Origin: Gilvimarinus algae
Lineage (GTDB): Bacteria > Pseudomonadota > Gammaproteobacteria > Pseudomonadales > Cellvibrionaceae
Direction: 5' to 3'
NCBI RefSeq assembly: GCF_030518215.1
Contig: NZ_JAULRT010000031.1
Coordinates: 62,001 to 126,000 of the forward strand
DNA length: 64,000 bases
Part shown: positions 24,765-29,608 of the stretch, in pieces
Numbering within the stretch: the first letter of the stretch is position 1
Layout of the letters: every line of letters starts with the position of its first letter
The notes under the pieces: model-generated
Seen by the model: the letters and a program-made list of their open reading frames with translations, nothing else
Told to the model about the DNA's origin: nothing
Database searches by the model: none
Position numbers and translations under genes: made by a program

Positions 24765-27700
24765 ATGATATCCCCCCGCCTATTTCGCCGTTTTTCACTG
24801 CACTATTTGCTGCTAGCCAGCCTGCTGTTGGCGTCTGGCCCCATTGTGGCTCAAACCTATACTTACAATGGTGTGGGTTATACAACGCTGGAAGCTGCCG
24901 AGGCTGCCATGCGCGCGGCCAAAGGGGGAGAAGATGAGTACGATAGCTTCGCGAGGGAAAATCTGGAGTATGACTTCAGTACAGTCTCATCCGGTCGTTC
25001 CTATTATAAAACCGAATCAAAAGGCGCTGAGGGAACGCCTGTTGGGACTTTTTACCGCTCCATGAGCCAATACGTTTTCGATAAAGAAGAGGCTTATGCT
25101 ATACGCTTAGCTTATCATCACGACAGCCTTGGATCCTACAGCTGTCAACTGCCCGAGGTGATTAGTGAGAATGGCGTCTCTGAAGAGTCGGGGTTGGGTG
25201 GACTTAACCTTCTCCTGAGTGGGGCCCCACTATTTGGCGTGCCCTATGAGAAAGCTTACTCAAAATCGTACAGGCTGTTGATAACTTGGCTGCGACATGG
25301 GTGGGGGGACCCAAGCGGTAGTGGTTTTACTTGGTGCGGTTATCAACCCTCTTCAACTATCACATACGGGCCCAAGCAATCCACACACGACGACAATTCT
25401 GTTTTTCAGTTCGATGTACATCAATGCCCTCGTGGATACCGAAACAGTTCTGCCTATGACTCAAACGCTCGGCTGACGGCCTCTTGTAAAAGCAGGAGGA
25501 TGACAGATATTCTCTATGTTAAATGCCGTTGTGATCAAAACTTTATCGACGGTAAATGTGAAGACCGAGAGCCTGTCTATAACGCCGGTACCACCCAAGA
25601 CCCCAGTACGGGCGCCATTCTAAAAATCTCAGACCCGAATAATCAGGGCTTGCGTTGTGGCCAGGAAATCCAGGGCGAGGACTGCGAGGGCAGCGGTGAG
25701 CCCATTGATGTGCCTTGGGTGGGCAATCCTGTCAGTTGTGCCACCGGCCAGAAAAAACAGACCGAGGCGCTGTACCAATCCGCCGATGGCCAGCTGAACT
25801 TTAATCTCACCTACAAGAAGAGCGGCGAAACCAAAACTCGTGCCTACACACTACCCATTCCGAACAATGTGGAGGTGATTGAGGTGATCAAGCCCGAAGA
25901 GAAAACTCACGGTTGGCTCTCGGATGCGCCTCGTTTGATTGACTATGGCCAGGGCGTGATGGCTTTCCTTAATGGTCGCGGGATTACCCGCTTGTTCCTC
26001 AATGGGCAGTCGCAGCGCCCCGCCGCCGGCCATCTCACCACCACCAGTGGTGGCAGCATTTATACCAGTGCGGGTGGCACGGCTTACCACTTTGACAGTG
26101 CGGGAGTGTTAACGAACAAAACCGACCGCAATGATCGAACTGTCACCTACACTTACCCCAGCCATGATGAGCGGGTGATGACCGACGACGCAGGTCGCAG
26201 TCTGCGCCTGATCTATGATGACCTGGGGCCGGCGGGCGAACCTGTGCCGGTACAGATGACCGACCCGGCGGGCCAGGTGTACAGCTACCAGTATGATCCG
26301 GACGGCTACCTGACGCGCGTGAATCTTCCCGGTGGCGGTTATCGCGAATACAGCTATCAGGTGTTCGACGATGGCGATAAGCGCCTCAGCAGCATTCAGG
26401 ACGAAACCGGCACCCACTACGCCTTCTGGGCCTATGATGAGAAGAAGCGGGCCACCTTGTCCGAGCACGCTGGCAGTGCGGAAAAGGTGACTATAAATTA
26501 TAATGATGAGACGCCCGGTGAGGTCTCGCGCTCCGTGCGCACCTACCGTTCGGCCTCGGATTTCTCTGAAGTCGACTATACATTTGCTGTGCTCAATGGC
26601 AGCTACAAGCCGCTGGAAAAAACCGTACAGCCCTGTCCTGACTGCAGTGTGGGTACCACCCAGTACCAGTACGACAGCAACGGTTACCTGCAGGAGAAAA
26701 TCGATGCGGCGGGCGTGGTCACGCGTTTTACCTACAACAGCGAAGGGCTGCAAACCCAGAAAATCGAGGCCTGGGGCACGCCTGAAGAGCGCACAACCAC
26801 AACCACCTGGCACATCGGCTGGCGCAAGCCGCTGACTGTGGATGAGGCGCAGCGGTTGACCACCTACACCTACGATGCCAACGGTAATCGCCTGACCCAG
26901 GCGGTAAAGGACAAACAGACGATGCTGCAGCGTACCACCACCTGGACCTATAACAGCCGGGGGCAGGTGCTGACGGAAGATGGTCCGCGCACCAGCGTTA
27001 ACGACACTGCCACCTACACCTATGACGCCCAGGGTAACCTGGCCACGGTGACCAACGCACTAGGGCACACCACCGTCTTTGCCAACTACGATGCCCACGG
27101 CCGCGCGCTGTCTATTACCGATGCCAATGGCGTCAGCACCCAACTGGTTTACTCGCCCCGTGGCTGGCTCACCAGCGCGACCACCGCCGGCAAGACCACC
27201 CTCTACACCTACCTCGCCAATGGTAAGTTGCAAAGTGTAGAGCGCTCCACTGGTGTAACTCTGCACTATGAATACGATGCCGCTCAGCGCCTGACCGCCA
27301 TTGAGGACGATGCCGGCAATCGCATTGAGTACACGTTGGATTTAATGGGCAATCAAACCCAAACCGATATTAAGGATGCAGCCGGCGTACTTAAAAATGC
27401 GGTGACTCAGGTGTACAACAATCTGGGGCGTCTAAAACAGACCATCCGAGGCGGCAATGGGGCTGACGAGTTCAGCTATGACGCTGAAGGCCGAACGACC
27501 GTGCAGGAGGATGCGCTTAACCGAACTTCCACTATGGAATATGACCCCCTGGGGCGCTTGCTCAAGCAAATTGACCCTGCGCAACAGGAAACGGAATTTA
27601 GCTATGACACTCAGAACAACCTCACCAGTGTCACCGACCCCAATAATCACGCCACGGCCTATATCTACAACGGCTTTGGCGAAGTAACCCAGCTCACCAG

Positions 27701-29405: not shown

Positions 29406-29608
29406 TACTGATGATTCTTAGTGAGAACAGGGTGTTTAGACTGCTAATACAGATTAATTGTGTTTTGTGGTTCCTTTCAGTAGGCTTTTTATTGAGCCCT
29501 GATTCTCGGGTTCTACATATAATTATTTTGCTGGCAGGGCTTTTAGTTTCTGCTCTCTTGGAATTCATGGACATCAGAAGAAACAAGAAAATAGCGCACG
29601 CAGAATGA
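29399..29608 (+). CDS. Small membrane protein, candidate immunity protein
   Basis: 69 residues if it starts at GTG 29399, which overlaps the Rhs stop by 7 bases; ATG 29411 is the alternative. Two hydrophobic segments (about residues 13-32 and 38-56) end in a basic tail. It is AT-rich like the Rhs tip. Overlap with a polymorphic-toxin gene and small size suggest an immunity protein acting in the membrane. No family is recognised, and the start has no good ribosome-binding site, so coupling to Rhs translation is inferred. Confidence 0.55.
   Translation: MLILMILSENRVFRLLIQINCVLWFLSVGFLLSPDSRVLHIIILLAGLLVSALLEFMDIRRNKKIAHAE

Follow-up and report, generated by a model that had tools for sequence, protein, structure and literature searches.

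The window, a stretch of 64,000 nucleotides from Gilvimarinus algae, carries a large Rhs gene, a small membrane ORF at its end and a degenerate transposase element behind both (Table 1). We took ATG 24765 as the start of the Rhs gene, because the SD-like AGGGAG lies 6 nt upstream of it. Residue numbers are counted from this ATG. Translation from GTG 24762 yields 1547 residues and shifts all numbers by +1.

Table 1. Features of the Rhs locus, with positions in the window.
Feature	Position	Strand	Details
Rhs gene	24765..29405	+	1546 aa from ATG; SD-like AGGGAG at 24753-24758
Probable Sec signal peptide	24765..24854	+	residues 1-30, MISPRLFRRFSLHYLLLASLLLASGPIVAQ; hydropathy segment, cleavage site by eye
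Cys-containing N-terminal region	24855..25739	+	10 Cys at residues 127-325; without close relatives among the genomes searched
Predicted self-cleavage residues Arg1414, Asp1427 (DPIG), Asp1450 (DILG)	29004..29114	+	from sequence; compare R2103, D2116, D2140 of the protein in PMC13018210
Tip Y1455-C1546, candidate toxin	29127..29402	+	92 aa, nine Cys; from sequence, profile and sequence searches
Two-helix membrane ORF, candidate immunity protein	29399..29608	+	69 aa from GTG 29399 or 65 aa from ATG 29411
Degenerate Y1 (IS200-like) transposase element	29640..30397	+	inverted ends; in-frame TGA at 29791
Third copy of the element end motif	24537..24548	-	GTTTACTTAATT; left of the Rhs gene

The Rhs protein

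The protein contains both YD repeats and an Rhs-associated core, two of the features expected of an Rhs polymorphic toxin. Pfam detects 20 RHS_repeat stretches (6e-84) and one RHS (2e-13). The NCBIfam model Rhs_assc_core (1.6e-25) ends at residue 1455 of the 1547-residue translation. Up to E 10, Pfam reports RHS_repeat and RHS alone. Neither a PAAR domain nor teneurin-type N-terminal domains (NHL, FN-plug and related ones) were found in this search, which distant versions of the latter could escape. T6SS PAAR-Rhs effectors are defined by an N-terminal PAAR domain, which by Pfam this protein lacks. Its N-terminus is signal-like instead: RLFRR, a hydrophobic run and VAQ follow each other in residues 1-30, judged from hydropathy and by eye. 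An earlier note on this DNA had argued for Sec export rather than T6SS. The argument rests on the missing PAAR domain and the signal-like N-terminus, and we recover both; Sec export is thus the predicted route.

Behind the signal peptide the sequence is isolated among the genomes searched. The only match to the next 386 residues among 144 family genomes is the genome itself, and 369 class genomes yield itself and two weak partial matches. A scan of genome contigs with the N-terminal 717 aa returned no relative. The whole protein has 21 cysteines, nine in the tip and 12 elsewhere.

The Arg and the two Asp predicted to serve self-cleavage stand before the tip by sequence. The second motif is DILG and not DPxG, with Ile in place of Pro. 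Self-cleavage after Leu1454 is plausible, because Arg and the first Asp are 13 residues apart, as are R2103 and D2116 of the bacterial teneurin-like protein BiTLP of Bacillus, and because the two Asp lie 23 residues apart, compared to 24 in BiTLP (PMC13018210, accessible part). Such a cleavage would release the 92-residue tip. At about this point the base composition changes: G+C is 0.553 for 24765-29120, drops to 0.386 in the tip and is 0.384 in the small ORF, with 0.559 for the window. Hence the succession of Rhs core and AT-richer tip described in the earlier note is borne out.

The tip and the small membrane ORF

The tip has cysteines at residues 1459, 1470, 1489, 1493, 1506, 1510, 1532, 1543 and 1546. 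The translation confirms the nine cysteines with CDYVC, CQIIC and CSEC spacings that had been noticed before. The genome holds a single copy of the tip. Searches of Pfam, NCBIfam and PDB sequences gave no match, the best PHROGs match reaches only 0.024, and just two plasmid matches appear at E 1, covering 30% of the tip. There is no relative among phages and viral contigs or in the scan of genome contigs. Besides itself, genus, family and phylum genomes yield matches at chance level only: three in 8 genus genomes (E<=1), four in 144 family genomes (E<=0.1) and two in 398 phylum genomes (E<=0.01). We examined nine such matches (L005, L006, L007, L017-L020, L268, L269) as possible relatives and rejected them. 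Their E values of 0.001-0.8 hold for one genome and are about chance over hundreds. L006 and L268 have internal stops. Around L005, L017-L020 and L269 there is no Rhs; the frames there resemble ABC transporters, enoyl-CoA hydratases, methyltransferases or glycosyltransferases by eye, or are broken by stops. The tip was thus rightly called unrecognised. A harmless Rhs ending conserved in many genomes, the case that the earlier note had named as its refutation, was not seen in the 144 family and 398 phylum genomes searched. The tip is predicted to be an unrelated candidate toxin family.

Its structure is less clear. By Kyte-Doolittle hydropathy the tip has no hydrophobic TM segment. AlphaFold2 folds it into a hairpin in one model of five (79.6), with the remaining four at 41-48, and a fold search with the tip model gave no significant match (best E 1.1). 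The symmetric spacing of the cysteines is mildly unusual; 700 of 20000 random placements and 920 of 20000 gap shuffles do as well. If C1489 paired with C1510, C1493 with C1506 and C1470 with C1532 in a hairpin, three cysteines (C1459, C1543, C1546) would have no part in it. A hairpin of this kind is possible according to the model, and we make no claim for the pairing itself. The odd cysteine of the tip may be C1459 instead of C1546, as a CxC/CxxC pair is possible at the tail.

From GTG 29399 the small ORF would share 7 nt with the end of the Rhs gene; from ATG 29411 it would begin 5 nt beyond that end. No ribosome site deciding between the two starts was seen. Hence the overlap with the Rhs stop, claimed earlier, exists for the GTG start and disappears for the ATG start. 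The two membrane segments claimed for the 69-residue frame are well founded: hydropathy places them at residues 15-33 and 38-56, and AlphaFold2 models the 65-aa form, without alignment, as a hairpin of two long helices (pLDDT 91.8). The stretch 29390-29700 was shuffled 3000 times with its dinucleotides preserved: 86 shuffles contain an ORF of 60 aa or more that begins within the first 45 nt, and a single one contains such an ORF with two hydrophobic segments. Thus the predicted ORF is more than chance. It has no match in plasmids or, apart from its own genome, in the 144 family genomes, which is neutral for an orphan cassette. TgpA_N was dismissed as its identity, as the Pfam value of 0.047 is far under the cut-off. 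From their sequences, tip and small ORF form a candidate tip/immunity pair.

Alternatively, the tip could be a decayed or displaced non-toxic remnant, with the small ORF incidental. Tip and ORF have no relatives above chance, the tip is AT-rich, a broken transposase adjoins and DILG stands in place of DPxG, as this reading would have it. The frame of the tip, however, stays open until it ends in a proper stop codon, only one of the 3000 shuffles has a two-TM ORF in this place, and the cysteine count obeys the class rule described below. Nor is the lack of relatives exceptional, since most tips that we collected are likewise unrelated (82 clusters from 103 tips). We judge a remnant improbable.

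A site of tip exchange after ssb

We compared the stretch after ssb in 8 genus genomes (the window and seven others, one stretch being only 7.8 kb long). By blastn with the window, which very divergent Rhs would escape, Rhs sequences follow ssb in three of them: the window itself (G000), G001 and G006. In G001 there is a full Rhs, whose tip has 76 residues and five Cys, together with at least two more tip cassettes, parts of the region being N. G006 has one tip cassette and a scrap of core. After these three G001 tips come ORFs of 138 aa (one TM segment), 127 aa (three) and 69 aa (two), and after the G006 tip one of 125 aa (four). Two more Rhs lie elsewhere in the genome of the window: one has a five-Cys tip and a four-TM ORF behind it, the other a one-Cys DUF4258 tip and an ORF that lacks TM segments. 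Similar cores with different tips in relatives agree with the idea, stated earlier, that Rhs tips are exchangeable. Judged from these sequences, the site after ssb is an Rhs hotspot with tip swapping.

One G001 cassette and the G006 cassette contain CxxHDxCY. The G006 tip has a weak PLA2G12 match (6.4e-5, under the curated cut-off), the G001 cassette none. These phospholipase-A2-like cassettes lie at L034 5961-7100 (CEEHDRCY) and in L038 (CRKHDECY), and the ORFs after them have three and four TM segments.

Such cassettes suggest another possibility: our tip may be a periplasmic enzyme, a lipid or wall hydrolase, and the two-helix protein may shield the membrane or bind the enzyme there. The cassettes at the same site in two relatives are PLA2-like and likewise come with membrane ORFs, and the tip of an exported relative contains an SHGC motif, seen by eye, which we take to be LD-transpeptidase-like. 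The tip of the window, in contrast, has only one His and no recognised catalytic pattern. It lacks an active site of the CxxHDxCY (Tox-PLA2) type, and it has no Pfam, NCBIfam or PDB sequence match. We hold an enzyme to be unlikely, with some chance of being true.

It is also conceivable that the protein targets eukaryotes, grazers or hosts, and that the membrane ORF is not an immunity gene. ABC (Tc)-type YD-shell toxins do target insect cells (PMC13018210, accessible part). An assortment of tips at one site, each beside its own ORF, would however be usual for interbacterial systems, and a eukaryotic target has the slimmest chance of all the readings considered here.

The transposase element behind the small ORF is presumably REP-associated. 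Its Y1 transposase frame (29725-30207) is broken by the in-frame TGA. Allowing at most one mismatch, the end motif occurs three times in the window, compared to 0.17 expected. The element is possibly linked to cassette movement.

Several side observations concern the same element. Its end motifs (24537-24548, 29640-29664 and 30373-30397) flank the pair of Rhs gene and small ORF. A copy also lies near another Rhs of the genome, at L042 position 8521, and the remaining Rhs is followed by an ORF that by eye resembles a Y1-type transposase (L003 2834). A gene for a trypsin-like peptidase (30441-31178; Trypsin_2 6.5e-6, 27.4 bits with a cut-off of 27.6) adjoins the element, and a further imperfect copy of the element end is found at 31264.

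Odd cysteine numbers in exported Rhs tips

We collected 100 regions around long Rhs frames, hand-picked among the matches listed in family and class genomes, and added eight loci: the three of the genome itself, G001 and four plasmid loci. This sample yielded 106 frames of at least 900 aa with a core and 105 distinct ends, 66 of them called exported and 39 not. Exported proteins were separated from the others by a hydropathy score with changes by eye. L226 and L238 were put in; L259, with a VgrG-like start, and L188, whose start resembles the non-exported group, were put out. In three of the 66 (L233, L235, L256) the N-terminus is pilin-like and not simply signal-like. Tip cysteines were counted from the first DPxG to the end.

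The number of tip cysteines is odd in 64 of the 66 exported proteins (family 37/37, class 27/29). Since 34 of 38 exported family proteins were already among the tips in which the odd pattern was first noticed, the class set alone is an independent test. With automatic sorting only, 62/66 exported tips are odd (class 25/28, or 22/25 homology clusters), and a stricter hydropathy score gives 61/62. Counted by homology cluster, 55/57 exported tips are odd (binomial p 2e-14). The rest of the same proteins, in contrast, is odd in only 17/66 (tip vs rest, Fisher p 9e-19). That the rest tends to be even agrees with what is known of exported proteins, which favour even cysteine numbers (PMC7678975, accessible part). 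Two earlier counts are superseded: 75 of 82 clusters odd, three even and four without Cys, from a crude cut that mixed exported and other Rhs; and 12/29 non-exported family proteins odd, which missed the linker Cys in some.

Tips of non-exported Rhs are odd in 26/39 across both sets (Fisher p 3e-5 vs exported), or in 28/39 with automatic sorting. Many of them have one linker Cys in common (GLSCKE), and a few may be misfiled exported ones. Hence the contrast with non-exported Rhs is weaker than the contrast with the rest of the same proteins. Nine named exported-type plasmid proteins or cassettes, several with a common tip, have one or three tip cysteines, and three T6SS-linked ones have 2, 3 and 0 over about the last 160 residues.

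The rule holds for the tip as a whole. We rejected an odd cysteine confined to the C-terminus, since counts over only the last 20, 40 and 60 residues are odd in just 21, 21 and 24 of the 66. The end of the tip has a tendency of its own: within the final ten residues, 38 of 57 exported clusters have a Cys, where internal windows lead one to expect 13.2, and 21 have at least two (2.3 expected), often as CxC or CxxC in unrelated tips. Among non-exported Rhs, here unclustered, 5/39 have a Cys in this stretch.

With a signal-like N-terminus and nine tip cysteines, the Rhs protein of the window falls into the proposed group. Its cysteines had been taken as peculiar to this tip; nearly all the exported Rhs tips that we examined, however, share an odd count.

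An odd number leaves one Cys without a partner inside the tip. A disulfide between tip and core cannot be the universal explanation, as in 49 of the 66 an even number of Cys lies outside the tip, and seven have none there at all. These seven, with no Cys outside the tip (signal region aside), still have odd tips. Hence these tips either bond to another molecule or leave the thiol free, and the odd thiol of some tips may simply be catalytic. Over the class, each exported tip seems to keep one thiol for a partner beyond itself.

The same counts bear on metal binding. The CxxxC and CxxC pairs of our tip could form a zinc-ribbon-like site, and the tip could act in the target cytoplasm, for example on nucleic acid. 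Yet the signal-like N-terminus leads us to expect passage through the oxidising periplasm, Pfam and NCBIfam detect no zinc-finger family, cysteine numbers are odd and variable over unrelated exported tips, and the membrane neighbour suits an envelope target. Metal binding is very unlikely.

Neighbouring genes point to the envelope as well. The next ORF has at least two TM segments in 22/60 exported Rhs and in 3/37 others (Fisher p 0.002), a count in which L226 and L238 are still placed among the non-exported. The three exceptions (L237, L238, L249) may be misfiled. Of the remaining exported Rhs, 14 have a neighbour with one TM segment and 24 one without any. A membrane gene beside an exported tip, as proposed for this locus, is not universal, as 24/60 lack it. 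Exported Rhs thus have partners in the envelope more often than other Rhs, in keeping with a membrane or periplasmic target for the tip.

Comparison with known systems

One of the closest likenesses is BiTLP (PMC13018210, accessible part). Like our protein as we read it, it is an exported YD shell with a tip of about 92 aa past a cleavage site, and a gene lies directly downstream, as in almost all teneurin-like proteins. The BiTLP tip needs a signal peptide to inhibit E. coli and makes the cells permeable to propidium iodide; its C2216 forms a disulfide with C719 of the plug. In contrast to BiTLP, our protein has no teneurin-type N-terminal domains detected by Pfam, 21 cysteines in all and a tip with nine cysteines and no hydrophobic TM segment. 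The two tips are compared here by description only. Rhs4 and Rhs5 of Myxococcus xanthus are likewise large Rhs proteins with signal sequences and kill independently of T6SS, but at about 4000 aa they are much longer (PMC10433427, accessible part).

From residue 312 on, over most of its length, the core is 36-37% identical to IncC and Vibrio plasmid Rhs (WP_232070534.1, WP_014342219.1, WP_011872905.1, WP_014386644.1, WP_159408520.1), with about 57-62% identity at the core end. These proteins differ from ours in their N-terminal region and their tips, which are polymorphic and have one or three Cys each. Some IncC tips are followed by a barstar-family or MafI-family immunity gene, the Vibrio ones by genes annotated as hypothetical. 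Annotated IncC Rhs starts fall after the signal peptide, which appears with an upstream start (L012).

Two further systems act on membranes. Tse5, a pore-forming Rhs toxin, has an encapsulated tip delivered to the inner membrane but is T6SS-delivered; the words cysteine and disulfide are absent from the accessible main text (PMC10684867). CDI ionophore toxins are membrane-acting polymorphic toxins with their own immunity proteins (PMC11630599, accessible part). They are five-helix bundles on CdiA and resemble our system by description only.

Interpretation

With good confidence we read the locus as a Sec-exported, PAAR-less Rhs polymorphic toxin, whose current tip would be a new toxin family with its own immunity gene. 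It is thus a known kind of system with a predicted new tip and candidate immunity pair. The tip probably acts on the inner membrane or in the periplasm. Several points count against this explanation: there is no relative in which conservation of the pair could be demonstrated, the tip has no hydrophobic TM segment, unlike that of BiTLP, the second motif is DILG, the hairpin is found in one of five models and has no significant fold match, the cysteine symmetry is only mildly unusual, and some exported Rhs have neighbours free of TM segments.

We propose the following sequence of events. The Rhs protein would cross the inner membrane via Sec, and its cysteines would be oxidised in the periplasm. 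The shell would self-cleave after Leu1454 and keep the tip inside. Before release, one tip Cys would be tied to a partner beyond the tip, for instance the plug, another molecule or a carrier. On contact, the tip would reach the periplasm of the neighbour, where its disulfide-stapled helical hairpin would disturb the inner membrane. The product of the small membrane ORF would sit in the inner membrane of the producer and block the tip.

The bond outside the tip leads to a more general and more tentative idea, which we judge somewhat more likely to fail than to hold. Sec-exported Rhs proteins may obey an odd-cysteine rule, in which the spare tip Cys is bonded to the plug, a second Rhs molecule or a carrier and acts as a redox latch until reductive release. 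Among the papers listed by searches of the open-licence literature, covered by title and beginning of abstract, we found no report of such a rule in Rhs tips and no earlier description of odd cysteine numbers as a class property of exported Rhs.

For the genome at hand, the tip and its small partner would form an unrelated candidate toxin family, compact enough for a few experiments. If the rule is true, the nine-Cys tip is one member of a redox-latch class. The rule runs counter to the even preference of exported proteins and so points to a bond that can be searched for directly. For teneurin-like proteins, delivery and release are stated to await elucidation (PMC13018210, accessible part). 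It is to this hand-over of toxins by exported Rhs/YD shells that the odd-cysteine bond would speak.
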